Part shown: in pieces, positions 14,420-32,918 of the stretch | How positions within the stretch are numbered: the stretch's first letter is position 1 | Layout: every line of letters starts with the position of its first letter | NCBI GenBank assembly: GCA_013376995.1 | Contig: JACAAZ010000003.1 | Coordinates: forward strand, 263,640 to 327,639 | Length of the DNA stretch: 64,000 nt | Origin: Bacteroidota bacterium | GTDB taxonomy: Bacteria > Bacteroidota > Bacteroidia > Bacteroidales > UBA4417 | Direction: 5' to 3' | The notes under the pieces: model-generated | What the model was told of the DNA's origin: nothing | Database searches by the model: none | The model's input: only the letters and a program-made list of their open reading frames with translations | Translations under genes and position numbers: made by a program

Positions 14420-14522
14420 ATATCCTTTACTTTGTCTGGTTCAAGAATTTTAAGATTCCTTTCTTATTATTCCTGGTTTTGGATCATACTTTCGTACTAA
14501 ATTTCCCTCAACCTCCCGACAA

Positions 14523-15791: not shown

Positions 15792-15955
15792 CACAGCGTT
15801 CAAAATCGCAATGTTACCGACAGTTTAAGCTTATTTATCTAACCCTTTTTATCATTTTTCTTTACTCGTTTACTTTTATGTCAATGTAGTCAGAAATTTA
15901 AGTGAGTTCAGGCTCATTTTTTTACGAATAGCTAATAATCCAAATATTATTAACT

Positions 15956-16046
15956 CTTAGTGCCATATTTGTGACTTTGTGTCCGCCTCATGCGGAAGGC
16001 AATAATTTCTCCCACTAAGACACTAAGAAACAAAGTAATCACAAAG
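15956..16046. repeat. composite imperfect palindrome between propeller genes
   Basis: CTTAGTG (15956) and CTTTGTG (15975) on the left are mirrored by CACTAAG (16013 and 16021) and CACAAAG (16040) on the right. A small hairpin, TCCGC-ctcat-GCGGA, sits between them. This looks like a dispersed intergenic palindromic element of a kind common in bacterial genomes. The rest of 15792-16066 is A/T-rich with nothing else recognised. Confidence 0.6.
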
Positions 16047-16066
16047 AAATTTCATAATCCTTGCTG

Positions 16067-17326: not shown

Positions 17327-17346
17327 TAACCGATATCCCGGCTACT

Positions 17347-18561
17347 ATGAAAAGAATCTTCTGCTTCCTTATACTGCTGCTCATATGCAGTGCAGGTATC
17401 AACGCTCAAACAATCAGCCAGTTTCGCGGCCCGGAACGCAATGGCATATATCCTGAAAAGAATCTCCTTGCTTCCTGGCCTGAAGCAGGGCCTGCAATTT
17501 CCTGGAAAGCAGAGGGTATCGGCGATGGTTACAGTTCACCCATAATTTCAGGAAATTACATTTACGTTACAGGTGAGGTTGACAGCATTGGTTACCTGAG
17601 TGTTTTTGATAAGAAAGGCAAGCTGGCCTGGAAAAAGGAAATAGGCCGCGAGTGGATGGAAAATTTTGTTGGCTCGCGTTCCACTCCTACCTTGGTTGGG
17701 GATTTGGTTTACCTCTGTTCATCCATGGGGAAGATATCCTGTCTCGAAGCTGCAACAGGAAAAGAAAAATGGTCGGTCGATATGCTGCGCGACCTGCACG
17801 GTATAAATGTCCGCTTTGGATATTCATCTGGTTTACTGGTGGATGGAGATGTAATTTATTGTAATCCCGGTGGTGTTGACACCAATATGGTTGCCCTTAA
17901 CCGTTATACCGGAAAAATCATCTGGAAATCCAAAGCATTGGGCGATTCCACAGCATATGGATCACCTGTCCTCCTTAACTTACCTTCCCGAAAGGTCCTG
18001 GTTAACATGACCATTCATAACATGATCGGCCTGGATGCTACAACAGGAGAACTTTTATGGTCGAAGCCTCAATCTGCTGAAAGGGATATCCAGGCCTGCA
18101 CTCCATTGTTTGAAGATGGATTCCTTTACAATGTGAATGGTTCAGGAAGTGGTGCAGTTAAATATGAAATCTCAGCCGATGGAAAAACAATAAAGTCACT
18201 CTGGGAAAATCCGAAAGTAACGGATGTCCACGGTGGTTTTGTAAAGCTTGGCAATTATCTGTATACCTCCCAATACCGTCCTCGTCGCTATTGCAGCGTG
18301 GATTGTTCAAACGGGCAGGTAGCTGATTCTCTCAAGTTTGATAAAGGGGCCATTATTTCTGCAGATGGAATGCTCTATCTCTATACGGAGAAAGGTATGG
18401 TAGGACTGGTAAAACCTGACAATGGTAAAATGCAACTGATCAGCTCTTTTAAAATGCCTGTTGGCACAAAAGAGTTTTTCACAATCCCGGTTATAGAAAA
18501 TGGCATCCTTTACCTGCGCCATGGCGATACTCTGCTGGCGTATGATATCAGGCGCCAATAG
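17347..18561 (+). CDS. secreted PQQ-like beta-propeller protein 4
   Basis: A 404-residue protein with a signal peptide ending INAQ, then SQFRGPERNGIYPEKNLL and a BamB-like propeller. It begins 20 bp after the previous stop, so the two are almost certainly cotranscribed. It is the likely tandem copy of protein 3, sharing GGVDTNMVALNRYTGKI with minor changes. The C-terminal LYLRHGDTLLAYDI block is the family signature in this locus. No cofactor-ligand residues can be assigned. Confidence 0.85.
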   Translation: MKRIFCFLILLLICSAGINAQTISQFRGPERNGIYPEKNLLASWPEAGPAISWKAEGIGDGYSSPIISGNYIYVTGEVDSIGYLSVFDKKGKLAWKKEIGREWMENFVGSRSTPTLVGDLVYLCSSMGKISCLEAATGKEKWSVDMLRDLHGINVRFGYSSGLLVDGDVIYCNPGGVDTNMVALNRYTGKIIWKSKALGDSTAYGSPVLLNLPSRKVLVNMTIHNMIGLDATTGELLWSKPQSAERDIQACTPLFEDGFLYNVNGSGSGAVKYEISADGKTIKSLWENPKVTDVHGGFVKLGNYLYTSQYRPRRYCSVDCSNGQVADSLKFDKGAIISADGMLYLYTEKGMVGLVKPDNGKMQLISSFKMPVGTKEFFTIPVIENGILYLRHGDTLLAYDIRRQ

Positions 18562-18645: not shown

Positions 18646-20076
18646 ATGTTTCGTAACCTTCTGTACAAGTATTTCCTGCCGGGATTTGTCATCCTTGGAA
18701 CCGGAATTCTTGTATGGTGGATCTTTTACAACCCAACGAGTTCTTTCATTGAATCAGTCCCGGGAATGGATAACCGCAAAGCAGGCAAATCCATTTCCAA
18801 AGAACAGGTGAAGATTGGAGAAAATTTTGTCTTCAGCAAAACCTGTGCGGATATTCCAGGAACCAGGTGGACCCGTTTCAGGGGACAGGATTTTGACAAT
18901 ATCTGCAAGGAAAAAGTACCTCTCATCGATCAGTTTGGAGCAACAGGGCCAAAAATTCTGTGGAATATCCCGGTTGGTGACGGCCATGCCTCCCCTGCAG
19001 TATACGATGGCAGGATTTACCTTCTCGACTATGATGAAGCTTCAAAGTCGGATGCATTAAGGTGTCTTTCCCTGCTTACCGGAGAGGAATTATGGCGCAG
19101 ATCCTACAAGGTACACCTGAAGCGTAATCACGGGCTTTCCAGGACAATCCCTGCTGTATCAGCAAAATACGTTATTAGCCTTGGCCCCAGGGGACAGGTG
19201 ATGTGCGTTGAACGCCTTACCGGCAACCTGGTATGGGGCTGCGATGCAGAAAAGGAATACGAGGCTGAAATTCCTTTCTGGTATACAGGTCAGTGCCCGA
19301 TCATTGAGAACGACACAGCTATATTCGCCACTGGCGGAAATTCGCTGGTAGTTGCAATTGATTGCAAAACAGGAAAGAAAGCATGGGATACTCCAAATCC
19401 TCATCATTGGAAAATGTCGCATTCTTCCATCATGCCGATGACATTTGGAGGTAAGAAGATGTATGTTTACTGTGCTATTGGAGGCACCTGCGGGATTTCA
19501 GCTGAAGGGCCCGATAAAGGCAAGATCCTTTGGGAAAATGCTGAATTCTCCCCTGCCGTCATTGCTCCTTCACCAATTGTTATGGATAAAGGGCTAATAC
19601 TGGTAATGGCAGGTTATGGAGCAGGTTCCGCAGTAATAAAGGTGACTAAGGAAGGAAGCAGTTTCTCCGCCCGAATCATAAGTAAGTACAAACCCTCGGA
19701 AGGCATGGCTTCCGAACAACAAACTGCTATTAATTTAAATGGTTATCTTTATGGGATCCAGCCTAAGGATGCCGGAGCCCTCCGCGATCAGTTTGTTTGC
19801 TATAAACCTGATAATTGCCAGTCCGCAGTTATGAGTAGCGGAAAAACTGTGCGTTTTGGCCTCGGACCCTATATTTACGCTGATAATAAGTTTTTTATCC
19901 TCAACGATAATGGAGAAATGACCATTGCAAAAGCCAGCCCCGGCAGTTTTAAGGTACTTGACAAAGCAAGGATCATTGATGGACAGGATTCCTGGGGCCC
20001 GTTAACCATTACCGGGGGATACCTGCTTATGAGAGACTCCAAACACCTGGTTTGTATCGATATACATAAAAAGTAG
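18646..20076 (+). CDS. membrane-anchored PQQ-like beta-propeller protein 5
   Basis: A 476-residue protein whose N-terminus is an uncleaved-looking helix (YFLPGFVILGTGILVWWIF, residues ~8-26), so it is probably anchored with the propeller in the periplasm. A Cys-containing linker (KTCADIPG) precedes TRWTRFRGQDFDNIC, a diverged form of the RG block of its neighbours. Blades include WNIPVGDGHASPAVYDG and GELWR. It is longer and more diverged than proteins 1-4 and lies 8 bp upstream of the NHL gene. It probably starts the redox operon. No CxxCH haem site is present. Confidence 0.82.
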   Translation: MFRNLLYKYFLPGFVILGTGILVWWIFYNPTSSFIESVPGMDNRKAGKSISKEQVKIGENFVFSKTCADIPGTRWTRFRGQDFDNICKEKVPLIDQFGATGPKILWNIPVGDGHASPAVYDGRIYLLDYDEASKSDALRCLSLLTGEELWRRSYKVHLKRNHGLSRTIPAVSAKYVISLGPRGQVMCVERLTGNLVWGCDAEKEYEAEIPFWYTGQCPIIENDTAIFATGGNSLVVAIDCKTGKKAWDTPNPHHWKMSHSSIMPMTFGGKKMYVYCAIGGTCGISAEGPDKGKILWENAEFSPAVIAPSPIVMDKGLILVMAGYGAGSAVIKVTKEGSSFSARIISKYKPSEGMASEQQTAINLNGYLYGIQPKDAGALRDQFVCYKPDNCQSAVMSSGKTVRFGLGPYIYADNKFFILNDNGEMTIAKASPGSFKVLDKARIIDGQDSWGPLTITGGYLLMRDSKHLVCIDIHKK

Positions 20077-20084
20077 CTAAACAT

Positions 20085-21053
20085 ATGAAACCGAAAATAT
20101 TCATAATCGGCGCTGTTGTCCTTCTTCTACTCGTAGTGGGATTTATGATAAAGGATCTTTTTATCGATTCCCCGGGAAATGTCAATCCTTATGCCTTTGA
20201 CCTGAATTCATTGAGGAAAGGCGATACCAGCCAATGCATGTATTCAGAGGATCAACAGATTAAACCAGCCGGTTCTGAGATTCATGGAATAAGCACAGAT
20301 GCCTCAGGAAATATCTATATCAGCGGGAAAGATACACTTGAAAAGCTTGACAGTACAGGAAAAGTGGCTTGGATTAAAGCTTACCCCGGCAATGCCGAAT
20401 GCATACATGTGGATGAAAAGGGAAATATATTCCTGGGGATGGAAGATCATATAGAGTTACTTGATGCGAATGGAACGAAAAAAGCAGCATGGAATAGCCC
20501 ATCAGCAGAAGCTGTGCTTACAAGTATAGCTACCTCAGGAAAAGATGTGTTTGTGGCAGATGCAGGAAATAAGTTAGTGTATCGATATGATTACCTGGGG
20601 AATATAGAGTTGAAAATCGGACAGAAAGATCCCTCAACCGGAGTACCTGGTTTCATTATTCCAAGCCCGTATTTCGACCTGGCAATGGATCCGGATGGGA
20701 GCCTTTGGGTAGCAAACACCGGTCGTCATGAACTTGAAAAATATACAAGAGAAGGAAAGCTGATCAGTAGCTGGGGTAAAGCCTCCATGGAGGTAAAGGG
20801 ATTCTGCGGATGCTGTAACCCATCCCATTTTGCTATTTTCCCGGGGGGATTTGTAACTGCCGAAAAAGCTATTGAACGGGTGAAGATCTATGATATGAAA
20901 GGCAACTTCGTTTGCCTTGTAGCTCTTCCTGAATCATTCGAAGAAGGGACAAAAGGCCTGGATCTGGCCATAGGTGCCCAAAATGCTATTCTTGTGCTTG
21001 ACCCGGTTAAAAACCTGGTTAGAAAATTCATCCCTAAGAAAAAGGAATCCTAA
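20085..21053 (+). CDS. membrane-anchored NHL-repeat propeller protein with CGCC motif
   Basis: A 322-residue protein with an N-terminal membrane helix (residues ~4-25) and NHL-type repeats (STDASGNIYISG, VDEKGNIFLG, AMDPDGSLWVANTG). Near residue 243 it has GFCGCCNPSHFAIFPGG, followed by FVTAEKAIERVKIYD. The clustered Cys residues could bind a metal or Fe-S centre, or form disulfides; this is inference. It starts 8 bp after the previous gene and ends 9 bp before the Tat ferredoxin, so it is part of the same operon. Periplasmic exposure is likely. A redox-sensing or scaffold role for the adjacent Fe-S proteins is possible but unproven. Confidence 0.75.
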   Translation: MKPKIFIIGAVVLLLLVVGFMIKDLFIDSPGNVNPYAFDLNSLRKGDTSQCMYSEDQQIKPAGSEIHGISTDASGNIYISGKDTLEKLDSTGKVAWIKAYPGNAECIHVDEKGNIFLGMEDHIELLDANGTKKAAWNSPSAEAVLTSIATSGKDVFVADAGNKLVYRYDYLGNIELKIGQKDPSTGVPGFIIPSPYFDLAMDPDGSLWVANTGRHELEKYTREGKLISSWGKASMEVKGFCGCCNPSHFAIFPGGFVTAEKAIERVKIYDMKGNFVCLVALPESFEEGTKGLDLAIGAQNAILVLDPVKNLVRKFIPKKKES

Positions 21054-21062
21054 TCGCATACT

Positions 21063-21734
21063 ATGCAGGATCGGCGCTCATTCATCAATTTGTTCGTAAG
21101 GGGAAGCTTTCTCACAGGACTTGCATTCCTGAGCGGAGCATTGATCCTTCGAAAAAAAGAAGGTGAATTCTGCGGATTGGATTTTGGATGCAACCGCTGT
21201 GATAAATCCGAAAGCTGCAATCTGCCTGAGGCTTCTTTATACCGTGAAACGGTCTGGCAACTGGATCCTGCCAAGTGCATTCAATGTGGCAGATGCGCAA
21301 CCAGTTGTGTGATGACCCCCTCAGCTGTAAAATGCACGCATGTTTATGCCATGTGCGGATATTGTGATCTGTGTGGGGGTTACCTTAAACCTGATACTAA
21401 AAACATATCGACAGCTGCCGAAAATCAGCTTTGTCCAACTAATGCCATTAAAAGAAAGTTCGTTGAAGAGCCCTTTTTCGAATATGAAATCGATGAAGCT
21501 CTTTGTATTGGCTGCGGTAAATGTGTTAAAGGCTGCAGTGCCTTTGGAAATGGCTCACTACAATTGCAGGTTCGCCATAACCGCTGCCAGAATTGCAACC
21601 AATGTTCCATCGCACGGGTTTGTCCTTCGGATGCTTATAGCAGGGTTCCTGCCTCCAAACCCTACCTTTTAAAAGGAATTGAGCAGGATTCTACAACAGC
21701 TCCCAAGATAAATTTGGGGGAGAAAGGAGTTTGA
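21063..21734 (+). CDS. Tat-type multi-[4Fe-4S] ferredoxin (NapG-like)
   Basis: A 223-residue protein starting with a twin-arginine signal (DRRSFINLFVRG, then a hydrophobic stretch LTGLAFLSGALIL). It therefore probably folds in the cytoplasm and is exported by Tat, or stays anchored facing the periplasm. Cys motifs include CIQCGRCATSC, CGYCDLC, CIGCGKCVKGC and CQNCNQCSIARVC, enough for about four [4Fe-4S] clusters. An extra Cys group (CGLDFGCNRC) lies near the start. NapG/MauM-like ferredoxins commonly work with NapH/MauN-like membrane proteins, and such a gene follows. It is the likely periplasmic electron carrier of this locus. Confidence 0.85.
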   Translation: MQDRRSFINLFVRGSFLTGLAFLSGALILRKKEGEFCGLDFGCNRCDKSESCNLPEASLYRETVWQLDPAKCIQCGRCATSCVMTPSAVKCTHVYAMCGYCDLCGGYLKPDTKNISTAAENQLCPTNAIKRKFVEEPFFEYEIDEALCIGCGKCVKGCSAFGNGSLQLQVRHNRCQNCNQCSIARVCPSDAYSRVPASKPYLLKGIEQDSTTAPKINLGEKGV

Positions 21735-21753
21735 CAATTAATTAATTCGAGAA

Positions 21754-21815
21754 GTTGACAATTCGACAATTCGGCAATTTTTCCTTCCGCTGACGGATGA
21801 AAATTTGAAAATTGG
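21754..21815. repeat. dispersed intergenic repeat, copy 1
   Basis: The stretch runs GACAATTCGACAATTCGGC, then CTGACGGATGAAAATTTG. Its reverse complement matches 42517-42585 (TTTTCATC, GTCAGC, AAATTGCCGAATT, TCGAATTG in the same order), so the two are inverted copies of one intergenic repeat family. Confidence 0.65.
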
Positions 21816-21908
21816 TTGAAATGTCAATTTCAAATGAATAAAGTAAAATATCTAAAATCAAAATTGATCCACGAACGACAAACCCCTAACGCTGAACATC
21901 GAACGCCT

Positions 21909-21942
21909 AACCCTTATAACCCTTATAACCCTTTTAACCCTT
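21909..21942 (+). repeat. short tandem repeat just upstream of the NapH-like gene
   Basis: AACCCTTATA occurs in tandem, then a variant AACCCTTTT and AACCCTT, directly before the ATG at 21944. No Shine-Dalgarno is visible there. It may be a simple-sequence insertion that has replaced the leader. Confidence 0.55.
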
Positions 21943-21943
21943 C

Positions 21944-23212
21944 ATGAAAACCCTCCGGCTGCTTATTTTCCTGGTTCTGCTAAGTACTATCCAAACAAGT
22001 ACTTATGCGATTCAGCGTTTTCCAAAGCCGGAATTCGAATCGGGATATACACAACCTCAAACACTTATGCCCCATGGAAGGGCGGAGATCCTCTCATACC
22101 TTGATGTTGCAGTACTGATTATCGCTCTTACATTCATTAGTTGGGTGATTATTCGTAAACGATCACGCAATTGGGTCTTCTGGACATCTATGTTTTCACT
22201 GGCCTATTTCGGCTTTTACCGGGAAGGTTGCGTTTGCGCTATCGGATCTATCCAAAATGTTTCCCTGGCACTTTTCGACAGCTCGTATGTGATACCTGTC
22301 ACAGTCATTGCCTTTTTTATACTTCCCCTCGTTTACACCCTTCTGTTCGGCAGAACCTTCTGTGCCGGGGTTTGCCCTTTCGGGGCCATGCAGGACCTGG
22401 TTGCATTCCGGCCGCAAAAGCTTGGAACAAGGTTAAATGCCATCCTCGGAATTATTCCTTACTTATACCTGGGATTGGCTATCCTTTATGCAGCAACCGG
22501 GACAGATTTTATCATCTGCAGGTATGACCCTTTCGTTGGCATCTTCAGGCTGAATGCCTCATTCGGTATGTTTTTCTTTGCAGGGACACTCCTTGTCTCA
22601 GGTATTTTCATTGCCCGTCCCTATTGCCGCTTTCTTTGCCCGTATGGGGTTCTGTTAAACTGGTTCAGCCGTTTTTCAAGGCAGCATATGACCATTACCC
22701 CGGCGCATTGTATCCAATGCAGGCTATGTGAGAACAGCTGTCCGTATGATGCCATTGAGATTCCATTGACAGAAAAAAATCCGGAAAACCGGAAAACCAG
22801 GGTTAAGAAACTCATTATCATTATTTTCCTGCTTCCCCTCCTAACGTTTACAGGTGGCTGGACAGCATCCCTTCTGCACACATCGCTGGCTGGAGTTCAT
22901 TCCAAGGTTAAACTTGCTAGGCAGGTCCTTCATCCTGTGAAAGATGAAAAGCAGGCTGAAACCTTTGAAATTCAAGCCTATAAATCCTCGGGAAAGCCTG
23001 AAGCCCAGGTATACCAGGAAGCACTTGTTGTTCTTGAAAGGTTCAAAACAGGCAGCTGGTGGGTTGGAAGTTTTATGGGGCTTGTTTTCGGATTGCTGAT
23101 TGCAGGAAAAATGCTGAAAAAATATGATCCGGATTATGTCCCAAACAAGGGCCGCTGCTTTAGTTGTGCCAAATGCGTGGATTATTGCCCGGTAAAACCA
23201 GAAAAGAACTAA
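21944..23212 (+). CDS. NapH-like integral membrane Fe-S protein with extra C-terminal cluster
   Basis: A 422-residue polytopic protein with an N-terminal signal or anchor. Four or so membrane helices flank two CxxxCP motifs, FCAGVCPFGAMQD and YCRFLCPYGVLL, typical of the NapH/NosR/RdxA group. A ferredoxin motif CIQCRLCENSCP follows. Then come a helix, a soluble loop of about 75 residues, another helix, and a C-terminal CFSCAKCVDYCP. With two helices in between, both ferredoxin motifs should face the same side, probably the cytoplasm. NapH-type proteins pass electrons between the quinone pool or cytoplasmic donors and periplasmic ferredoxins. The gene is 3 bp from the next one. Confidence 0.85.
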   Translation: MKTLRLLIFLVLLSTIQTSTYAIQRFPKPEFESGYTQPQTLMPHGRAEILSYLDVAVLIIALTFISWVIIRKRSRNWVFWTSMFSLAYFGFYREGCVCAIGSIQNVSLALFDSSYVIPVTVIAFFILPLVYTLLFGRTFCAGVCPFGAMQDLVAFRPQKLGTRLNAILGIIPYLYLGLAILYAATGTDFIICRYDPFVGIFRLNASFGMFFFAGTLLVSGIFIARPYCRFLCPYGVLLNWFSRFSRQHMTITPAHCIQCRLCENSCPYDAIEIPLTEKNPENRKTRVKKLIIIIFLLPLLTFTGGWTASLLHTSLAGVHSKVKLARQVLHPVKDEKQAETFEIQAYKSSGKPEAQVYQEALVVLERFKTGSWWVGSFMGLVFGLLIAGKMLKKYDPDYVPNKGRCFSCAKCVDYCPVKPEKN

Positions 23213-23215
23213 CCA

Positions 23216-25015
23216 ATGGAGTATTTCAAGCCTTCTGCTAAGTTGGTTGGACTGCTGAACAGGATTGCCCTTTCAGCCGGTCTGTTTGCATTTGTCATCT
23301 GTTTGTTGATCCTGGTAAATTACTACCAGCTTAAACGGTCTGATCCCCTGAACTCACCGGCACTTAAAGTCCTGGTTGAGAAGATGCGGAGCAACCCGGA
23401 CGATGAGCAGGTAAAACTGGAAATAAGGGAACTGGACCTGCTGGCCCGTAAAGCATTCTTTACGAATCGCTGGCAGATCCGCACCGGGGGATACTTGCTG
23501 ATCTTCTCTATTCTCATAATCGTTATCTGCTTGAAAACCATAGAATTGATTAAACCTAAGATTCCCGAAACACCAGGCTCAGTTACAGCTACCTTCTGGA
23601 GTGAGCGGCTCCTAAACCGGAAATGGATAACATATACAGGAATATCTCTTGTCCTGGTCTCAGTAGTTTTTGCCTACCTCACACATGACCAGTTGGGAGA
23701 TCAACTGGAACGGGTGACAGGAAAAACAGCAGGCAAATCTTCAAATCAGGTCACCATGGATCTTGCCGGTTCGACTGACGAAAACCCGGCAAAAGTTACT
23801 ACAGTTGAAAGTTCTATAAAAACTGATTCAGCAATCGTCAACCTTGATGGATATCCTAGTCAGCAGGAGTTAAACTCCAATTTCCCCTATTTTCGGGGAC
23901 CTTTCAGCACTGGTCTTACATTTCAGAAGAATATTCCCACCTCCTGGGATGGTAAAAGCGGGAAAAATATAAAATGGAAAACTGCAGTCCCTCTTCCAGG
24001 CTATAATTCACCGGTGGTATGGAATGACAAAGTTTTCCTGGCTGGGGCGAATGCATCAAAGAAAGAAGTTGTTTGTTTTGATGTTGCTACAGGTAAAATC
24101 CTCTGGGAGACCCCCATTGAGAAAATTCCCGGCAGTCCAGCACAATCTCCTAAAGTGAATGCAGAAACAGGTTTGGCAGCTCCCACATGCGCTACTGACG
24201 GCAGAAGGGTTTATGCAATTTTTGCCAATGGCGACCTGGCAGCCCTGGATTTCACAGGAAAAGTTAGCTGGTCGAAAAACCTTGGACTTCCCAAAAACCA
24301 TTATGGACATTCTTCTTCTCTTATCACTTATCATGACTTATTGATTGTTCAGTATGATCAGTCAGGAGATGCCAATGTGATGGCTTTTAACGGAAAAACC
24401 GGTCAGCGTGTTTGGGAAACCAGCAGGGATGTAAAAGTTTCCTGGTCCTCTCCTATCCTTGTGAATACAGGAAAGAGAGTTGAACTGATATTGGTTGCTG
24501 AACCTAATATGGTTGCCTATGCTCCGGCAACAGGCAAGGAATTGTGGCGGATCGATTGCATTTCCGGGGAAGTTGGCCCTTCAGCTGCTTATTCTGATGG
24601 GATTGCATTCTCTGTGAATGAGTATTCCAAACTGGCCGCTGTTCAGGTAGGCGACACTCCTAAAGTTCTGTGGGAAAGTGATGAATTTATGTCAGACATT
24701 CCAAGCCCGGTGGCTTCTGCAAACTACCTCTTCCTGGCAACAAGTTATGGAACCATGATCTGCTATGATGCCAAAAGTGGAAATAAATACTGGGAAAAAG
24801 ATTTTGGCACACCCATTTTTGCCTCTCCCATGATTGCCGATGGGAAAGTTTTTGCTTTGGATAAGAAAGGGATCATGCATATTTTCAGGATTGACAAGAC
24901 ATACACTTCAATTTCTGATCCTCCGCTCGGTGAATCTTCGGTTTGCACCCCGGCATTTGCCGATGGCAGGATCTTTATCAGGGGCGATAAAAACCTCTAT
25001 TGCATTGGTAAATAG
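23216..25015 (+). CDS. three-helix membrane-anchored PQQ-like beta-propeller protein 6
   Basis: A 599-residue protein with membrane helices near residues 10-36, 80-101 and 138-160, then a Thr/Ser-rich linker, then a propeller from about residue 220. The propeller begins FPYFRGPFSTGLTF, a form of the RG block seen in the other paralogs, and has blades such as VVCFDVATGKILWETP and DAKSGNKYWEKDFG. The gene starts 3 bp after the NapH-like gene, which implies tight coupling. It may dock the periplasmic propeller on the NapH-like protein. No CxxCH motif is present. Confidence 0.83.
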   Translation: MEYFKPSAKLVGLLNRIALSAGLFAFVICLLILVNYYQLKRSDPLNSPALKVLVEKMRSNPDDEQVKLEIRELDLLARKAFFTNRWQIRTGGYLLIFSILIIVICLKTIELIKPKIPETPGSVTATFWSERLLNRKWITYTGISLVLVSVVFAYLTHDQLGDQLERVTGKTAGKSSNQVTMDLAGSTDENPAKVTTVESSIKTDSAIVNLDGYPSQQELNSNFPYFRGPFSTGLTFQKNIPTSWDGKSGKNIKWKTAVPLPGYNSPVVWNDKVFLAGANASKKEVVCFDVATGKILWETPIEKIPGSPAQSPKVNAETGLAAPTCATDGRRVYAIFANGDLAALDFTGKVSWSKNLGLPKNHYGHSSSLITYHDLLIVQYDQSGDANVMAFNGKTGQRVWETSRDVKVSWSSPILVNTGKRVELILVAEPNMVAYAPATGKELWRIDCISGEVGPSAAYSDGIAFSVNEYSKLAAVQVGDTPKVLWESDEFMSDIPSPVASANYLFLATSYGTMICYDAKSGNKYWEKDFGTPIFASPMIADGKVFALDKKGIMHIFRIDKTYTSISDPPLGESSVCTPAFADGRIFIRGDKNLYCIGK

Positions 25016-25033
25016 CTGAAATAAGGAACTTTC

Positions 25034-25606
25034 GTGGGAACAGAAATAATAAGTGAAAAATCATTCGTCCGGCTGGATTTTGCAAGCCTTGGGTTTAAAT
25101 CCGGCGATTATGATAATTGTGTCTTTGACAACTGCAACTTCCCGGAAGTCAATCTTACGGGAATTCATTTTTCAAACTGCATTTTCAGGGCCTGCAACCT
25201 GAGCCTGGCAAAAATTAACCAGACAGCCTTCAGAAATGCAAGCTTCAAAGATTGCAAAATGCTCGGCATGCATTTTGAGCAATGCAATGACTTCCTTTTC
25301 GAAGTGGGTTTTGAAAATTGCAACCTGAACCTTTCTTCCTTTTTCCGCAAGAAAGTCAAAAAAACCATCTTCAGGAATTGCAGCTTACATGAAACTGATT
25401 TCACCGAAACTGACCTGAATGCCTCTGTTTTTGATAATTGCGACCTTGACAGGGCAGTGTTTGACAATACTATACTTGAAAATGCAGATTTCCGGACGGC
25501 TTACAATTATTCCATTGACCCATCGTCAAACAGGATTAAAAAGGCAAAATTCACTCTTCCAGCCGTAGTTGGACTACTTAACCACCTGTCCATAGTCATC
25601 GAATGA
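25034..25606 (+). CDS. pentapeptide-repeat protein
   Basis: A 190-residue protein with runs of A/C-(D/N)-(L/F)-x-x repeats (DNCVFDNCNFPEVNLTG, NCSLHETDFTETDLN). These should form a right-handed quadrilateral beta-helix. The C-terminal block NADFRTAYNYSIDPSSN and the following IKKAKF are typical of Qnr/McbG-like family members. The start is GTG, supported by AAGGAAC about 9 bases upstream; no earlier ATG fits. It lies 18 bp after the propeller gene and 18 bp before the next gene. Some relatives protect DNA gyrase, but no such role can be inferred here, and its presence inside a redox operon is odd. Confidence 0.8.
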   Translation: MGTEIISEKSFVRLDFASLGFKSGDYDNCVFDNCNFPEVNLTGIHFSNCIFRACNLSLAKINQTAFRNASFKDCKMLGMHFEQCNDFLFEVGFENCNLNLSSFFRKKVKKTIFRNCSLHETDFTETDLNASVFDNCDLDRAVFDNTILENADFRTAYNYSIDPSSNRIKKAKFTLPAVVGLLNHLSIVIE

Positions 25607-25624
25607 AGATCTAAACAATTATAA

Positions 25625-26137
25625 ATGAGACTGCTGACTATTTTCTTCCTTGTATACTTGCTTTCATGCACTTCCTATGCCCAGCATGATGATGCATTCT
25701 GTAAGGCTGCTAATAATGGAAATTTCAGGAAAGTAGCCAGGCAATTCAAAAAGCAGGTAAGGCTAAGAAGGTATGGCCTGACCTGTGATAACGGTACCGG
25801 AAGCGGGATACAGGTAATTCACACTTATGGTCTTGACACTCTAACCCTCTGGTTGAGGAATCATTCATGTGTTGTAGATGCAGCCTGGGATAAATGCCAG
25901 GTAAAACCGGCGATTTATCCGGGATGGGCAATCATAGGAGCCTGTTTCAATACCCGGGATGGGATCAAGGAAGAATGTTTTTACATCCAGGAAGGGACTT
26001 TGGGTAACCTCTGGCTTTTTGGCTGGCATCCGCATCTTTTTAAGCCAAAGAACATTTTAACCTTCAAAAAACACTATCAAAGTGAGGGGTTTGTTCATCA
26101 GCAAAATCAGAATTGTGAACAAAGCAAGAACCATTAG
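25625..26137 (+). CDS. exported protein of unknown function
   Basis: A 170-residue protein with an N-terminal signal (LLTIFFLVYLLSCTSYAQ). LLSC could be a lipobox, but TSYAQ also fits ordinary cleavage. Five Cys residues lie in the mature part (AFCKAANN, LTCDNG, HSCVVDA, KCQVK, ACFNT), plus ECFY and NCEQ. I do not recognise a domain. It lies between the pentapeptide gene and the NuoEF-type fusion on the same strand, 18 bp and 73 bp away, so it is probably part of the operon. Confidence 0.6.
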   Translation: MRLLTIFFLVYLLSCTSYAQHDDAFCKAANNGNFRKVARQFKKQVRLRRYGLTCDNGTGSGIQVIHTYGLDTLTLWLRNHSCVVDAAWDKCQVKPAIYPGWAIIGACFNTRDGIKEECFYIQEGTLGNLWLFGWHPHLFKPKNILTFKKHYQSEGFVHQQNQNCEQSKNH

Positions 26138-26210
26138 GCCTTTGATAATAAAACAATTAAAAATCTTTCCATTACTAACAATTTATCGTACGACTATTCC
26201 CGGAAATTGA

Positions 26211-28565
26211 ATGAAGCCTGAAAAAGAACATATCCTCAAAATTGTTGACCAGATCATCTCCAGGCGTGGAGGCGCTGCCGAAGCTGCTATTCCTATCCTA
26301 CAGGATATCCAGGTTGCATTCAATTATTTGCCGCAGGAAGCATTGGAACATGTCTGTAAAATTACCGGCATTACGCCTTCTGTGATTACAGGAATATCTA
26401 CCTTTTACTCACAGTTCCGTCACCAGCCTGCCGGCGAGCATATCATTCGCGTTTGTACCGGTACAGCCTGCCATGTGAAAGGTTCCGGGCTTGTTTTTGA
26501 TGCCTTCAAACGTGAACTTGGTTTGGAAGATCAACAGGAAACAGACGAAAACGGCCAGTTTACCATGGAGAAAGTAGCCTGCCTGGGCTGTTGTACCCTG
26601 GCCCCGGTTGTTAAAATTGACCAGACTACCTACGGGCATGTCCAGCCCGAAAAAGTAGGTGAGATCATAAAGGACTTTCTTTCCAGGAAAGATAAAGGTG
26701 AACTTCCATTCACTGGAAACGGGCACGATTCTGACATCCAGGGTGAGATCAGGATAGGCCTGGGTTCATGCTGTGTAGCCAGCGGAAGCCTTGAAGTTAA
26801 GTCTGAAATTGAAAGGACTCTTGCCGATACACGGATCAATGTTAATGTTAAGCAGGTTGGCTGCGTTGGAATTTGCAACCAGGTTCCGATTTTGGAGATC
26901 GTCAAGCCAGGGGAAGAACCGGCCTTCTATGCCAGGATAAAGCCGGAAGAGGTTAAAGAAGTGCTGCTAAAGCATTTTAAACCCGTCGGATTCCTTAATC
27001 GCCTGCGCAACAGCTTCTTCAATAAGTTTGAAACAGTTCTCGACGATGGAGCCCCAAGGTCATTCAGGAGATACCTGTCCGAACAACGGGATACACCATT
27101 ATCAGGATTCCTGGGGCCACAAATGGCTATTGCCACAGAGAACAGGGGTATCGTAAAGCCCTGTGATATTGAGGAATACAAAACATCAGGCGGTTTCCTG
27201 GCGTTGGAAAAATGCCTGAAAAGCTTATCTCCCCAGGAAGTAATCGAAGAAATCAAGCGATCGGGATTAAGGGGGCGCGGCGGAGCCGGTTTTCCTACAG
27301 GTATCAAATGGCAGTTGGTGCATGATCAATCCTCCGAATCCAAGTATATCATCTGTAACGGGGATGAGGGAGATCCGGGTGCCTTCATGGACCGCATGCT
27401 CCTGGAATCCTATCCCTTCCGTGTAATCGAAGGCATGCTAATCGCAGGTTATGCAACCCGGGCCTCACATGGTATTTTCTATATTCGCGCCGAATATCCG
27501 CTGGCTGTAGAACGCATCCGTGAAGCTATGTCATTATGTAAAGAAAAGGGGATCATCGGAGATTCAGTTCTGGGCTCGGAGTTCACTTTCGACCTGAAGA
27601 TATTCGAAGGAGCAGGAGCCTTTGTCTGTGGGGAAGAAACTGCTCTTATAGCTTCCATTGAAGGCGAACGTGGCATTCCGGGGATGCGCCCGCCCTACCC
27701 CGCTGTAAACGGGCTTTGGGGAAAACCTACGCTCGTCAATAATACGGAAACATTTTCGCTGATCTCCTGGATCATCAGGAATGGCGCTGATGCATTTAAC
27801 AGCACCGGGACAGAGGGTAGCAAAGGAACCAAAGTGTTCGCTCTTGCCGGTAAGGTAAATCGTGGCGGGCTGATTGAGGTCCCTATGGGCATTACGTTGA
27901 GAAAGATTGTGGAAGAAATCGGCGGGGGAATAGCCGGCAACCGGAAATTCAAAGCCGTTCAGATAGGCGGTCCTTCCGGCGGATGCATTCCTGCCTCACT
28001 CTATGATCTTCCGATAGATTACGAAACCTTGACATCTGTAGGTGCAATGATGGGATCCGGCGGATTGATAGTGCTTGATGAAACTGACTGTATGGTCGAC
28101 ATCGCCCACTATTTCCTCTCCTTCACCCAGGATCAATCCTGTGGGAAATGTACATTCTGCCGTATCGGTACCAGGAGAATGCTGGAGTTACTAGAAAAGA
28201 TACGATCGGGTAAAGGAAAACCGGAAGACCTGGACCTTCTCGAGAGCCTGGCTAAAAGCACACAAGTCGGAAGCCTTTGCGGGTTAGGTAAGACTGCTCC
28301 AAACCCTGTTCTGTCCACACTAAAGTATTTCAGGCATGAGTATGAAGCTCATATTAATGGCATTTGCCCCTCAGGACGCTGCACGCCGCTTCTTCTCTAC
28401 CGTGTGACAGATGATTGCATCGGATGTACAAAGTGCGCCCAGCGCTGTCCTGCGGATGCCATAGCATATGTACCCTACGAAGTTCATCAAATTGATACTG
28501 AAAAATGCATTAAATGTGACATCTGCAGGCAAATATGCCCTGTAGATGCCATCAAAGTAAATTAA
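26211..28565 (+). CDS. NuoE-NuoF-ferredoxin fusion, NADH-dehydrogenase module
   Basis: A 784-residue fusion. Residues ~1-150 are NuoE-like with 2Fe-2S ligands C82, C87, C124 and C128. A second thioredoxin-like 2Fe-2S domain covers ~180-260 (GSCCVASGS, GCVGIC). Its usual first Cys seems shifted, giving an adjacent Cys pair. Residues ~340-700 are NuoF-like, with FMN/NADH-site motifs RGRGGAGFPTGIKW and NGDEGDPGAFMDR and the [4Fe-4S] motif CGKCTFCRIGTRR. Two ferredoxin motifs end the protein (CIGCTKCAQRCP, CIKCDICRQICP). The layout resembles HydB/HndC subunits of soluble NAD-linked complexes with the NuoE part fused on. It should oxidise NADH or reduce NAD+. The stop abuts the next ATG. Confidence 0.88.
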   Translation: MKPEKEHILKIVDQIISRRGGAAEAAIPILQDIQVAFNYLPQEALEHVCKITGITPSVITGISTFYSQFRHQPAGEHIIRVCTGTACHVKGSGLVFDAFKRELGLEDQQETDENGQFTMEKVACLGCCTLAPVVKIDQTTYGHVQPEKVGEIIKDFLSRKDKGELPFTGNGHDSDIQGEIRIGLGSCCVASGSLEVKSEIERTLADTRINVNVKQVGCVGICNQVPILEIVKPGEEPAFYARIKPEEVKEVLLKHFKPVGFLNRLRNSFFNKFETVLDDGAPRSFRRYLSEQRDTPLSGFLGPQMAIATENRGIVKPCDIEEYKTSGGFLALEKCLKSLSPQEVIEEIKRSGLRGRGGAGFPTGIKWQLVHDQSSESKYIICNGDEGDPGAFMDRMLLESYPFRVIEGMLIAGYATRASHGIFYIRAEYPLAVERIREAMSLCKEKGIIGDSVLGSEFTFDLKIFEGAGAFVCGEETALIASIEGERGIPGMRPPYPAVNGLWGKPTLVNNTETFSLISWIIRNGADAFNSTGTEGSKGTKVFALAGKVNRGGLIEVPMGITLRKIVEEIGGGIAGNRKFKAVQIGGPSGGCIPASLYDLPIDYETLTSVGAMMGSGGLIVLDETDCMVDIAHYFLSFTQDQSCGKCTFCRIGTRRMLELLEKIRSGKGKPEDLDLLESLAKSTQVGSLCGLGKTAPNPVLSTLKYFRHEYEAHINGICPSGRCTPLLLYRVTDDCIGCTKCAQRCPADAIAYVPYEVHQIDTEKCIKCDICRQICPVDAIKVN

Positions 28566-30158
28566 ATGATCAAGCTAAAGATCGATCATAAAGAAATTGA
28601 AGTACCGGAGGGGACAACCATTCTGGTTGCAGCTTCCATGCTTGGAATTGAGATCCCCACTCTTTGCCATATGCAAGGAGTTTCAGTTCATCCTTCCTGC
28701 ATGGTTTGCACAGTAAAAGATATTGTTTCCGGTAAGCTTTTTCCATCCTGTGCTATGCCTGTGTTGCCAAATATGGATATTATCACTGATTCTGAGGACC
28801 TTATAAGCATCCGGAAAGAAGCGCTTGAATTGCTGCTGAGTGATCATGCAGGAGATTGTGAGGCACCTTGCAGGCTGAGTTGTCCTGCCTTTATGGATAT
28901 CCCCAGGATGAACCGGCTGATCGCTGAAGGAAATTTTGAAAAAGCTCTTGAAGTTGTCCGGCAAGAGATTGCCTTGCCGCTTATCCTGGGATATGTGTGC
29001 CCTGCACCTTGCGAAAAAGCATGCAGGCGCAAACCCATCGATGGTACTGTCTCAATTTGCCTGTTGAAAAGATCTACAGCCACTAATCCTGATATCCGGT
29101 CCAGAAAGTTGGATATCCCAATTCAAAAAAGTGGTAAAAGAATCGGTATTATCGGTACAGGGCCGGCAGGCCTCTCAGCTGCCTTTTACCTTTTGAGGAT
29201 GGGGCATGAATGCGTTCTCTTCGATCAGCAGGAAGAAGCAGGCGGGGCATTGCGGTACTCCATAAAAGAAGATATTCTGCCAAGGGAAGTGCTTGATGCT
29301 GAGATTGAAGTCCTTAGGATGATGGGAGCCTCATTTGTTTTGAATTCGAAGCAAACACTACGTGAACTAGGAAAAGCAAATGGAAGCAGGTTTGATGCCC
29401 TTGTGCTGGCAACTGGAAGCCAGGAGCAACATACAGTGGATGAGCTTATTAAATCTGCCGATGGTACCACCCGTACCCTGAACCGGAAAACCTATGAAAC
29501 CCGCATTGAGGGTGTATTTGCATGCGGTAGCATTTTGCGCGATCAACGTATGGCTGTCAGGGCAGGGGCGCAGGGAAAAGCTGCCGCACTCAATGTTGAC
29601 AGGTTCCTGAGAGGTATGCCAGCTACACAGGAGGATTCATTATTCAATTCGTCCATTGGAGAACTTAAGGAAGAAGAATACGTTGAATACCTTAAGGAAA
29701 GCAAAGTTAATAACCCTGTTAATCCGGGAAAAGGTTTTACAGCTGGATACTCTCCTGAGGAAGCAATGGAAGAAGCCAGGCGTTGCATGCATTGTGATTG
29801 CAGGAAACCTGTGACTTGCAAACTTAGAAATCTGTCACATCTGTATAAGGCTGACAAAAAGCGCTTTGCCGGGCCTGACCGGAAGCATCTCCTGAAATCA
29901 ATGCAGCATGAACTGATAATCTATGAACAGGAAAAATGTATCAAATGCGGCATTTGTATAGAGATAGCTTCAAAAGCATCTGAAGCATTGGGACTCTCCT
30001 TTATCGGAAGAGGTTTCGACGTAAAAGTGAGCGTGCCTTTCAACAAAACAACTCTTGAAGCCTTAAAAACTTCGGCAATTGAATGTGCAAATGCATGCCC
30101 CACAGGTGCTCTAGCCACCAAACTTTCCGAAGAGAATGACATTCTTACTGTTATCTGA
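28566..30158 (+). CDS. 2Fe-2S / GltD-like FAD / NuoG-like hybrid without NAD(P)H domain
   Basis: A 530-residue protein. The NuoG-type 2Fe-2S ligands are C34, C45, C48 and C62 (C-x10-C-x2-C-x13-C). H94/C98 recall NuoG and merge into a GltD-like Cys domain (C102, C106, C145, C149, C153). The FAD motif is GIIGTGPAGLSAA (G197, G199, G202). In GltD relatives about 200 residues with a second GxGxxG separate the ATG-type motif from the last FAD motif. Here LATGS (~281-285) and GVFACGS (~316-322) are only 37 residues apart, so the NAD(P)H domain is absent. The usual Asp of the last motif is Ser322. The C-terminus has C407/C410/C412/C418 and a NuoG N4-like set, C458, C461, C464 and C511. It probably gets electrons from the preceding protein. 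Confidence 0.82.
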   Translation: MIKLKIDHKEIEVPEGTTILVAASMLGIEIPTLCHMQGVSVHPSCMVCTVKDIVSGKLFPSCAMPVLPNMDIITDSEDLISIRKEALELLLSDHAGDCEAPCRLSCPAFMDIPRMNRLIAEGNFEKALEVVRQEIALPLILGYVCPAPCEKACRRKPIDGTVSICLLKRSTATNPDIRSRKLDIPIQKSGKRIGIIGTGPAGLSAAFYLLRMGHECVLFDQQEEAGGALRYSIKEDILPREVLDAEIEVLRMMGASFVLNSKQTLRELGKANGSRFDALVLATGSQEQHTVDELIKSADGTTRTLNRKTYETRIEGVFACGSILRDQRMAVRAGAQGKAAALNVDRFLRGMPATQEDSLFNSSIGELKEEEYVEYLKESKVNNPVNPGKGFTAGYSPEEAMEEARRCMHCDCRKPVTCKLRNLSHLYKADKKRFAGPDRKHLLKSMQHELIIYEQEKCIKCGICIEIASKASEALGLSFIGRGFDVKVSVPFNKTTLEALKTSAIECANACPTGALATKLSEENDILTVI

Positions 30159-30251
30159 TCAGTAGACATTTGGGATAATTTATCTGATTGAATACTTTAA
30201 CTAATTTCAGCAAACTCTATTAACATTTTGCTTGTTACTAAGTACCTAAAC

Positions 30252-31373
30252 ATGAATTTGAGATTCCTTTCTTCATTTTTTCTGCTCATTCTGGTGCTTC
30301 AACTCTCAGCCCAGGAGAAAGGAAGTTCTTCATGGCCCTCTTTCAGGGGTGATGCACAGTTAACCGGTACTTTATCATCCTCTATCCCTTCCACATTCAA
30401 GTTATTATGGTCGTTCAAATCCGGGGATGAAATCAAATCCTCGCCTGTAACCGGGAATGGCTTGATCTATTTTGGATCGGGCGATGGCTTTGTATATGCC
30501 ATTACAGTAAGTGGGCAACTAAAATGGAAATACAATACGGTTACTGCAATTGAAGCCGCTCCCCTTCTCATCGAAAACACGCTTGTGGTTGGAAGCCTGG
30601 ATGGATCGCTGTATGCATTTAATGCTTTAAATGGAAAATTGAAATGGAAATATATTACTGATGGACAAATATCAGGCGGTGCTAATTGGGTTGCAGGACC
30701 GGATAACAAACAAAAACGCATACTGGTTGGCAGCTACGATTTTTTCCTGCATTGTGTCAGCCTCAACAGTGGGAAAGCTCTATGGAAATATGAATCAGGG
30801 AATTACATTAACGGAACTCCTGCCGTATATGGGAAAACGGCGGTCTTTGGAGGCTGCGACGGCTTCCTTCATATGATCACTACTGCAAATGGTAAAGAGT
30901 TAAAGAAAACAGAGATAGGTACTTATGTCCCTGCATCAGCAGCCATTGTTGGTGATAGGGCCTACTTTGGGAATTATGACGGAGCCTTTTACTGTTTCGA
31001 CCTCAAAGCCAAGAAGATACTCTGGAAAACAGATGGTGGCGGACCTTTTATGGCATCTCCGGCGGCTACAAATAGTGACATTGTTACCGGCTCGCAGAAC
31101 CATAATGTATATTGTTATGATGCTCTGAAAGGTACTATCAGATGGAAATTCAAAACCCTGGGCAAGGTAGACGCTTCACCAATAATTGTAGGGAATAAGG
31201 TTATTATAGCATCAGGGGAAGGGCGTTTACATATTCTCGACCTGCAATCAGGTAAAGAAATCTGGGTATACGACATTGGCAGTAACATTTCAGCCACCCC
31301 GGCTGTTATGAACAATATGATATTTGTAGCTTCAGAAGATGGGAAGATTTATGCCTTTGGTGCTGGAAAATGA
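30252..31373 (+). CDS. secreted PQQ-like beta-propeller protein 7
   Basis: A longer frame begins with TTG at 30228, but the ATG at 30252 opens a clean signal peptide (NLRFLSSFFLLILVLQLSAQ), so I use it. The 374-residue protein then has SWPSFRGDAQLTG and very regular BamB-like blades (GSGDGFVYAI, GSLDGSLYAFNALNGKLKW, SEDGKIYAFGAGK). It is the most canonical propeller of the seven. It closes the locus, 93 bp after the hybrid flavoprotein and followed by a repeat-filled gap. The role is unknown. Confidence 0.83.
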   Translation: MNLRFLSSFFLLILVLQLSAQEKGSSSWPSFRGDAQLTGTLSSSIPSTFKLLWSFKSGDEIKSSPVTGNGLIYFGSGDGFVYAITVSGQLKWKYNTVTAIEAAPLLIENTLVVGSLDGSLYAFNALNGKLKWKYITDGQISGGANWVAGPDNKQKRILVGSYDFFLHCVSLNSGKALWKYESGNYINGTPAVYGKTAVFGGCDGFLHMITTANGKELKKTEIGTYVPASAAIVGDRAYFGNYDGAFYCFDLKAKKILWKTDGGGPFMASPAATNSDIVTGSQNHNVYCYDALKGTIRWKFKTLGKVDASPIIVGNKVIIASGEGRLHILDLQSGKEIWVYDIGSNISATPAVMNNMIFVASEDGKIYAFGAGK

Positions 31374-31619: not shown

Positions 31620-32918
31620 ATGAAGATAGTAAACATAGTCCCTGGATTTGGTGGAACCTTTTATTGCGGTAACTGCCTGCGCGACAGCGCATTCGTGGCA
31701 TCACTAAGGCAGGCCGGGCACGACGCCAGTATCCTACCCATGTACCTTCCACTCCAGGTAGGAATAAATACTCCTGACAAGGACATTCCTGTATTCTACG
31801 GAGCTGTAAACATCTACCTTAAACAGCAGTTCCCCTTTATGCGGAATATGCCTTCCTGGCTGGAAAAGTTCTTCAACTCCACTCCTATCCTGAAGTTTGC
31901 TGCCTCTAAATCAAGCTCAACCAGGGCTACAGGACTTGAAGAAATGACGGAATCCATGCTTCTTGGAAAGAATGGAAATCAAAGCCATGAATTGCAGCAA
32001 CTCGTTGATTTCCTGAAACATCACGAAAAACCGGATATCGTCCATTTTTCAAACGCCCTTCTTCTCGGAATGGCTGAACAAATCCGCAATGAGTTGAATG
32101 TCCCCGTAGTTTTTTCACTTCAGGATGAAGATGTTTGGGTGGATGTAATGAGCGAAAAATATAAACAGAGGATATGGGACCTGATGGCTGAAAAAGCTGC
32201 TGTTGTAGATGCTTTTATACCTGTGAGCAACTACTTTGCATCTGTGATGAAAACAAAGATGAGGATTCCGGACGCAAAGCTGCACATTTTGCCTATTGGA
32301 ATAGATCCAGGTAAATATCAGTTTTCCGAACCAGCCAAAGAACCCAGGGCAATTGGCTATTTATCAAGGATATGCGAAGAAAATGGCTTTGGAATCCTGG
32401 TTGATGCTTTCATCATTCTCAAAAAAGATCTGCGTTTTAAGGATCTGAAACTTAGGGTAACTGGCGGTAAAACCGGGGATGATGACCACTTCATTTCGGA
32501 ACAATACCGTAAACTCAGGGAAAACTCGATTTCTCATGATGTTGAGATCTTTCCTGAATTTACGCTTGAACACCTGCACAAATTCTTCAAATCCATAACC
32601 TTACTCTCTGTTCCCGTCCTGAACGGCGAAGCTTTCGGACTTTACCAGCTTGAAGCCCTGGCATCGGGCATACCCTTGGTGCAACCGCGACTCGGGGCGT
32701 TTCCTGAAATCATTGAATCGACCGGTGGCGGGATGATTTATGAGTCAAATACCCCACAAGCCTTATCAGAAGCACTTGCTGAGGTTTTAGATTCCCCATC
32801 GCTGCTTATGCAATTTAGCAAATCCGGACATGAGGCAGTATTGGATACCTACGACTGCAGGAAGGTTACACTGCAGATGATCAGCATTTACCAAGGACTT
32901 CTAAATAAAAGAATATAA
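31620..32918 (+). CDS. GT4-type glycosyltransferase
   Basis: A 432-residue GT-B glycosyltransferase. The N-terminus has VPGFGGTFYCGNCLRDSAF, a glycine-rich acceptor-side loop. The C-terminal half has LPIGIDPGKYQF, IGYLSRICEENGFGILVDA and the catalytic-site region GEAFGLYQLEALASGIP with PRLGAFPEI, typical of family 4. No membrane helix is evident, so it is cytoplasmic or peripheral. The stop overlaps the ATG of the ABC ATPase by one base (TAATG), so the two are translationally coupled. The sugar and acceptor are unknown; transfer of a sugar onto a surface glycan or lipid is likely. Confidence 0.85.
   Translation: MKIVNIVPGFGGTFYCGNCLRDSAFVASLRQAGHDASILPMYLPLQVGINTPDKDIPVFYGAVNIYLKQQFPFMRNMPSWLEKFFNSTPILKFAASKSSSTRATGLEEMTESMLLGKNGNQSHELQQLVDFLKHHEKPDIVHFSNALLLGMAEQIRNELNVPVVFSLQDEDVWVDVMSEKYKQRIWDLMAEKAAVVDAFIPVSNYFASVMKTKMRIPDAKLHILPIGIDPGKYQFSEPAKEPRAIGYLSRICEENGFGILVDAFIILKKDLRFKDLKLRVTGGKTGDDDHFISEQYRKLRENSISHDVEIFPEFTLEHLHKFFKSITLLSVPVLNGEAFGLYQLEALASGIPLVQPRLGAFPEIIESTGGGMIYESNTPQALSEALAEVLDSPSLLMQFSKSGHEAVLDTYDCRKVTLQMISIYQGLLNKRI

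Follow-up and report, generated by a model that had tools for sequence, protein, structure and literature searches.

Where do electrons go in a bacterial gene cluster that sets, close together on one strand, a fused NuoE-containing enzyme, a NapH-like membrane iron-sulfur (Fe-S) protein, an exported ferredoxin and a series of beta-propellers? The cluster lies in a stretch of 64,000 nucleotides (the window) from a Bacteroidota bacterium of the Bacteroidales lineage UBA4417 (GenBank assembly GCA_013376995.1, contig JACAAZ010000003.1, positions 263,640 to 327,639), whose genome comprises 5.05 Mb in 43 contigs. An earlier examination of the window without database searches (the sequence-only reading) had proposed that the genes of the span 18646-31373 form a path from NADH through the membrane to the periplasm. 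The genes that we named A, B, C, D, E, H, I and J (Table 1) are all intact open reading frames (ORFs) on the + strand, in the close order that this reading had described, and its anchored propellers, NHL protein with a Cys cluster, Tat ferredoxin and NapH-like protein were borne out by Pfam and NCBIfam matches and by sequence motifs. Also upheld in the ORFs scanned was its statement that hydrogenases, molybdopterin enzymes and CxxCH cytochromes are missing: Pfam reported no hydrogenase or molybdopterin family for 28 different window proteins, the remaining ORFs being unscanned, and none of the 38 main window ORFs checked contains a CxxCH motif. We therefore dropped a hydrogenase, a molybdoenzyme or a c-type cytochrome as the outlet. 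The locus is conserved among many Bacteroidales as well as in a second phylum, and has the look of an uncharacterised electron machine running between NADH/ferredoxin and the periplasm. We give roughly even odds (about 0.5) to a transmembrane electron system in which a NapGH-like Fe-S relay would connect an enzyme of the Bfu family with periplasmic propellers, so that the enzyme would reach its third substrate across the membrane.

The argument begins with gene order. In a first sample of 60 genomes, strong orthologues of C (E < 1e-60) were present in 12 of 16 genomes of the window's genus (the window's own counted, one partial) and in 9 of 44 other families. The order of the locus recurs in 20 fetched loci as far as their contigs extend, at protein identities of 31-87%. 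A scan of named genomes confirmed at least 566 relatives of C, among them proteins of Labilibaculum, Ancylomarina, Sunxiuqinia, Mangrovibacterium, Draconibacterium, Gaoshiqia, Perlabentimonas and one Kiritimatiellae; the closest named relatives of the window's C, among the matches listed, are Bacteroidales or Bacteroidetes metagenome-assembled genomes. Keeping the best 80 of these (at least 566) relatives gave 100 loci in all, of which 90 are distinct. Wherever a neighbor pair had at least 3 kb of room in the 90 distinct loci, we counted it as adjacent if it stood in order on the same strand, and this was so for A-B in 70/71, B-C in 74/75, C-D in 78/78, D-E in 72/73, E-H in 61/65, H-I in 46/49 and I-J in 7/8. 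Most loci whose contig extends far enough carry PQQ_2-type propellers upstream of A. The unit thus exceeds the span first described: about a dozen genes follow one another as propellers-A-B-C-D-E-H-I-J-K-L-M, with the upstream secreted propellers (13199-18561) and the downstream K, L and M (to 36974) included, K being missing from the Labilibaculum and Ancylomarina loci. Neighbors outside this order, a small gene C' excepted, are common to no more than 13 of the 100 loci. With 90 distinct loci, a second phylum and other neighbors mostly unshared, the order is beyond chance. The search for the same gene order across genomes, which had been put forward with the sequence-only reading, has thus found it, and the outcome named as refuting, homologs mostly apart from each other, did not occur in either adjacency or co-occurrence.

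Co-occurrence was counted in an order sample of 295 Bacteroidales genomes, 49 of which encode D. Fused H above 1000 bits was found in 41 genomes, 40 of them with D; counting three pieces at contig ends, H is present in 43/49 genomes with D and in 1/246 without it, an association that, like those of the gene T3 described below, rests on mutually related genomes whose kinship is ignored in the Fisher statistics. The search for H had passed 57 genomes at E 1e-240; we set aside 13 matches (801-983 bits) with internal stops or without the N-terminal NuoE part, reading them as separate hydC-hydB genes. A separate check of 14 genomes, some without H beside E, showed a long fused H in 12 and an H split between frames in one more; the last (the genome of locus L060) gave a NuoF-type match only. 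In a phylum sample, D was found in 1 of 395 genomes, the window's own; among the matches listed, five genomes of the same order were followed by other orders. Small unrelated genes stand between locus genes in L026, L027, L028, L030, L063, L086, L097 and others, with the order kept; judged by eye, they are REP-type transposase-like, four-helix-bundle and ORF6N/RhuM-like.

What kind of enzyme is H? Its domains are PF01257 (NuoE), PF01512 (51K FMN), PF10531 (SLBB, under the cut-off at 25.1 against 27), PF10589 (NADH_4Fe-4S) and Fer4, with two [4Fe-4S] clusters. We presume that these Pfam models correspond to the InterPro numbers given for the Bfu family, by whose domain definition H unites the domains of BfuB with the NuoE-type domain of BfuC. 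The best solved relatives are NfnB (9n5u), 9bov, StnB (8oh5), HydB (7q4v) and the B subunit of NiFe-Bfu (7t2r). The ligands of the B2 cluster of this last subunit are given in part of PMC9304861 as C438, C476 (often Thr), H525, C531 and C536, the His being described there as missing from non-bifurcating homologs. Aligned to 7t2r_B, H keeps four of the five, including the diagnostic His (C627, H714, C719 and C724), all at least 93% conserved in 63 sequences; in this and the other conservation counts, sequences shorter than 85% of the window protein were excluded, except for C and I. At the fifth, variable position the window's H and three relatives have Arg, and the other seven alignment rows have Cys or Thr. 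Of two NuoF rows compared, neither has the full B2 set and one has the aligned Cys and His. H scored 466 bits against the NuoF model TIGR01959, under its cut-off of 559, and no membrane subunit of complex I was among the 28 window proteins scanned by Pfam. We therefore rejected H as NuoEF of complex I, its NuoF score lying under the cut-off and its sequence being HydB/BfuB-like with four of the five B2 ligands; by its sequence features, H is a predicted bifurcating core of the Bfu/HydBC type. Because four of the five B2 ligands are kept, NADH and ferredoxin are the likely cytoplasmic redox pair, ferredoxin being the probable second partner since H is HydB/BfuB-like and not NuoF. In a BfuB tree, all H leaves group together with none of 14 other BfuB inside; the node value after re-rooting is 0.275, so the monophyly of H is not established.

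The next protein, I, carries by Pfam a [2Fe-2S], a GltD-type and a Fer4 domain. PF13510 is over and PF22117 just under its cut-off, and the Cys sets are invariant, so that the [2Fe-2S] and 4Fe-4S sites of BfuA are present. Alignment covers the N-terminal half of StnC, NfnA and 9bov_A (residues 2-286 for StnC); the NADPH domain is a gap, and a coarse pattern for the second Rossmann-type glycine motif is missing in 11 of 11 I proteins. The lack of the NADPH domain in all 11 led us to reject I as an NADP transhydrogenase. Residues C114, K170 and R239 are named for StnC in part of PMC10482914; in our own reading of the alignment, K170 has a counterpart in the window's I and C114 and R239 have none. 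In locus L040, I is also without the FAD domain and retains its Fe-S cysteines, and L155 and L159 encode H and I as a single protein that gave no GltD-type match. A profile comparison of I with H returned just a weak ferredoxin match. With the NADPH domain missing, some relatives lacking the FAD domain too and StnC C114 and R239 without counterpart, I is most simply read as an Fe-S relay whose FAD part looks vestigial. Two descriptions in the sequence-only reading are thus kept in part: the NuoE-NuoF fusion is a real fusion gene with a NuoE part, its B half resembling HydB/BfuB rather than NuoF, and the 2Fe-2S/FAD/4Fe-4S hybrid has the Fe-S domains, its FAD part appearing vestigial and its NADPH domain missing.

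How might electrons leave the cytoplasm? D contains two CxxCxxCxxxCP and two CxxxCP motifs. None of its 15 Cys varies in 13 sequences, and across 86 sequences each is at least 93% conserved. Net charges are +6 and +3 for the loops with the CxxCxxCxxxCP motifs and +2 for the long loop without Cys that separates the last two transmembrane segments, which points modestly to a cytoplasmic position of the motifs. Scores against the NapH models lay under the cut-offs (52.9 against 213 bits for TIGR02163; 50 against 234 for NF007013). Residues 1-62 of C in the window's genus form an N-terminal Cys4 part that in other families is a separate small exported gene, C'; the fusion of C' to C argues for contact between the two. 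Locus L157 (10101-14203) has a C-D pair from the divergent D group described below, with a DUF362-ferredoxin protein and a thioredoxin-like protein close by; propellers and Bfu genes were not seen around it in that 20 kb region.

On the periplasmic side, conservation among the four propellers tested (A, B, E and J) is highest in A, where 129 of the 476 residues reach at least 93% across 76 sequences. Its AlphaFold2 model (predicted local distance difference test score, pLDDT, 89) has a fold of the BamB/tetrathionate hydrolase/quinoprotein type at about 14% identity. The model of B (pLDDT 92.5) has an NHL fold, and its GCCNP motif is invariant in 53/53 aligned sequences; in L040, B itself starts with an RR-type signal. 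Fold searches of A and B returned general propeller neighbors and nothing more specific. A, E and J scored far under the cut-offs of PQQ enzyme models. PqqC was found in 0 of 26 genomes carrying the system, which is weak evidence because no control genome gave a match either.

From the observed genes, motifs, gene order, co-occurrence and missing NADPH domain, the path can be drawn as NAD(H)/ferredoxin - H - I - D - C'/C - B/A/E and the secreted propellers. In the cytoplasm, H would exchange electrons with NAD(H) and with ferredoxin, and I, with its vestigial FAD domain, would serve as a wire of Fe-S clusters; these steps are modeled on the Bfu family. By analogy with NapH-like proteins, D would accept electrons at its cytoplasmic ferredoxin motifs and pass them through membrane clusters to the exported C'/C, which may serve the secreted propellers and the anchored A, E and B (the last at its Cys site), the propellers being the putative site of reaction. 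Our inferences are the contact between I and D, the direction of flow, and what final reaction takes place and where. The net direction would be outward, from NADH and reduced ferredoxin to a periplasmic acceptor, as in a confurcating Bfu enzyme. Our preference for outward flow is a judgement and not a result; it has two grounds, namely that the third partner of Bfu enzymes works near the potentials of low-potential Fe-S clusters and that we saw no sign of PQQ, the PqqC test being weak. K, L and M are conserved with the locus and are candidate parts by their place in the order. The proposed path from NADH through the membrane to the periplasm therefore stands insofar as its parts are united by order and co-occurrence, with ferredoxin added as a probable second partner and the direction left free.

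Several observations weigh against such a system. The sequence fixes no direction, and no terminal enzyme was identified in the locus. The window's genus has Arg rather than Cys or Thr at the fifth B2 position. A clear fused H is missing from 6 of the 49 order-sample genomes with D and from 6 of 37 in the second phylum (G723, G776, G829, G876, G940 and G949), and in a few loci H or I is located elsewhere, against a tight unity. Promoter-like sites (38, against 34.7 with a standard deviation of 5.9 in shuffled sequence) and terminator-like sites (17, against 20.3 with a standard deviation of 4.9) are at the level of the shuffles.

We weighed these points against three other explanations. Inward flow, in which A, E, J and the secreted propellers would oxidize a periplasmic substrate and electrons would pass via C and D to reduce NAD+ and ferredoxin, is suggested by the quinoprotein-type fold predicted for A, yet no propeller scored over any PQQ-enzyme cut-off and PqqC was silent, weakly so given the controls. 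A PQQ-type donor would also be too oxidizing for NAD+. We hold this reversal to be unlikely, even with Bfu reactions described as reversible (part of PMC9304861) and a PQQ alcohol oxidase linked to NapH-like proteins elsewhere (part of PMC8238504). The resemblance of D to NapH and of C, in its role, to NapG would also suit a quinol dehydrogenase, with menaquinone partners on both sides: quinol would reduce C, and H-I would reduce or work with quinone, a Bfu type with quinone as third substrate being proposed in part of PMC9304861. The score of D, at 52.9 bits far under the NapH cut-off of 213, speaks against this assignment, which we regard as improbable.

It is very improbable, in our estimate, that the Bfu enzyme and the membrane and propeller set are co-inherited neighbors acting apart. 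Genomes that have D without a clear fused H would fit such separate action, as would locus L085, in which E does not follow D and a fused H lies elsewhere in the same genome; the tight gene order and the D-H co-occurrence in the order sample argue against it, and a fused H persists in genomes in which it is not found behind the A-E block, as the separate check of 14 genomes showed (12 with a fused H, one more with it split). The wired transmembrane system remains our preferred explanation. In its favor, NapH-like proteins serve reductases and oxidases of the periplasm elsewhere (part of PMC8238504).

The Kiritimatiellae locus L083 lies in genome G698, whose phylum, the second one with the system, we take to be the Verrucomicrobiota of GTDB. 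D was found in 37 of 240 genomes sampled there (E 1e-40), nine of them forming a divergent full-length group near 300 bits, and fused H is clear in 31 of the 37. In 11 of 20 regions fetched, the system stands beside a gene, T3, for a fusion of DUF116 and polyprenyl diphosphate synthase, usually with the other members of what Pfam indicates to be a terpenoid module: T1 (ferredoxin), T2 (radical SAM), T4 (toroid) and T5 (squalene-cyclase-like). The class II cyclase motif DxDD is present in 11 of 11 distinct full-length T5 copies, and T3 has the first DDxxD in 14 of 14 rows and the second in 13. T3 occurs in 35/37 second-phylum genomes with D and in 10/203 without, and lies within 12 kb of D in 14 of the 35 that have both. 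The corresponding Bacteroidales figures are 10/49 and 2/246, with three of the ten within 12 kb; T5, searched in 25 Bacteroidales genomes with D, was present in the five with T3 and not in the other twenty. In L148, T1-T5 lie between the D/E end and J and K, and in G870 they are apart from A-I, lined up with K, J and two propellers. Loci with the module, its parts varying, are L143, L148-L150, L152-L156, L158, L159, L172, L179, L195, L196 and L201-L203. Searches for DUF116 and for such a module showed no description of it among the open-licence PMC papers listed.

A strict tie between system and module is opposed by the 39 of 49 Bacteroidales genomes with D and without T3, and by genomes with T3 and without D. 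Ten of the latter are in the second phylum: G929 has a fused H, G924 a piece of one and G856 an unclear match, and the other seven have no BfuB match. We viewed seven T3 loci of D-lacking genomes on long enough contigs (7.5 kb shown), leaving out G856, G910 and G570, the loci of G924 and G929 being on short contigs; T3 is alone in five, accompanied as T1-T4 in G946 and as T1-T5 in G572, a genome of the order sample. Neither T3 nor T5 was found in the window's genome, where a DUF116 hit (C10) was rejected as not the T3 fusion; G015, of the same genus, has T1-T3. We regard as quite doubtful, and offer as speculation, that the system is a cytochrome-free transmembrane supply of reductant for a secreted or membrane-held glycosylated terpenoid, which the module and K would make, L-M would move and the Bfu-NapGH-propeller chain would reduce in the periplasm or use there as a new lipid electron carrier, another isoprenoid taking its place in genomes that, like the window's, lack the module.

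Table 1. Genes of the locus and their positions in the window (aa, amino acids; TM, transmembrane).
Feature	Positions	Strand	Basis or remark
Four secreted PQQ_2-type propeller genes	13199-14419, 14523-15791, 16061-17326, 17347-18561	+	Pfam PF13360 in each
A, membrane-anchored PQQ_2 propeller, 476 aa	18646-20076	+	Pfam/NCBIfam
B, membrane-anchored NHL propeller, CGCCNP	20085-21053	+	Pfam/NCBIfam
C, ferredoxin with Fer4 repeats, RR signal, 21 Cys	21063-21734	+	Pfam/NCBIfam, Cys count
D, NapH-like membrane Fe-S protein, Fer4_5, 15 Cys	21944-23212	+	PF12801; TIGR02163 below cut-off
E, three predicted TM segments and PQQ_2 propeller	23216-25015	+	Pfam, hydropathy
F, pentapeptide repeats	25034-25606		Not part of the conserved order
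G, no family	starts 25625		Inside the span; not part of the conserved order
H, predicted fused BfuC (NuoE) and BfuB (HydB) core, 784 aa	26211-28565	+	Pfam, PDB relatives
I, BfuA/StnC-like Fe-S subunit without NADPH domain, 530 aa	28566-30158	+	Pfam, alignment
J, secreted propeller	30228-31373	+	PF13570, PF13360
K, glycosyltransferase	31620-32918	+	Conserved downstream gene
L, ABC ATPase	32918-33601	+	Conserved downstream gene
M, FtsX-type permease	33678-36974	+	Conserved downstream gene

F and G were rejected as parts of the system, having no match in the 20 fetched loci or in the further 80, and F scored far under the cut-offs of Qnr and other pentapeptide models. Between C and D, positions 21735-21943 form the longest gap within A-E, which is A/T-rich and has short near-repeats. 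Upstream of the propellers, 113-12922 encodes a 4269-aa protein with PKD domains and a SprB repeat, probably at the cell surface, in a frame open from near the window edge.

We found no description of this locus among the open-licence PMC papers listed in our searches, and its closest known counterparts each cover part of it. With the Bfu family (HydABC, StnABC and Nfn-Bfu; PMC9304861), H shares the BfuBC core domains and four of the five B2 ligands and I the [2Fe-2S]/[4Fe-4S] sites of BfuA, whereas here BfuC and BfuB are fused, I is without a catalytic domain and the genes alongside encode propellers, an exported ferredoxin and a NapH-like protein. The words "NapH" and "propeller" are not in the main text of PMC9304861, part of which leaves 17 BfuB clades unassigned; the locus is a testable candidate for an unassigned Bfu function and, if our explanation is true, for a type of Bfu enzyme that reaches its third substrate on the other side of the membrane. 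The StnABC transhydrogenase (PMC10482914; 8oh5) is matched by H in StnB and by I in StnC, the window's I differing in its lack of the NADPH domain that marks Stn and Nfn. If the explanation holds, poorly understood periplasmic PQQ-like propellers would be tied to a redox path and, in the second phylum, to a terpenoid pathway. NapGH and the flavinylated NapH-like systems, as described in part of PMC8238504, share the NapH-like membrane Fe-S protein, the exported ferredoxin and a modular link to periplasmic enzymes. In contrast to the flavinylated systems, no FMN-binding domain was seen in ten proteins of the span or ten further window proteins scanned; in contrast to NapGH, D falls below the NapH cut-offs and an NADH/ferredoxin module stands in the same gene order, from which electrons would leave the cytoplasm by Fe-S clusters, with neither cytochrome nor FMN-binding domain seen in the locus.

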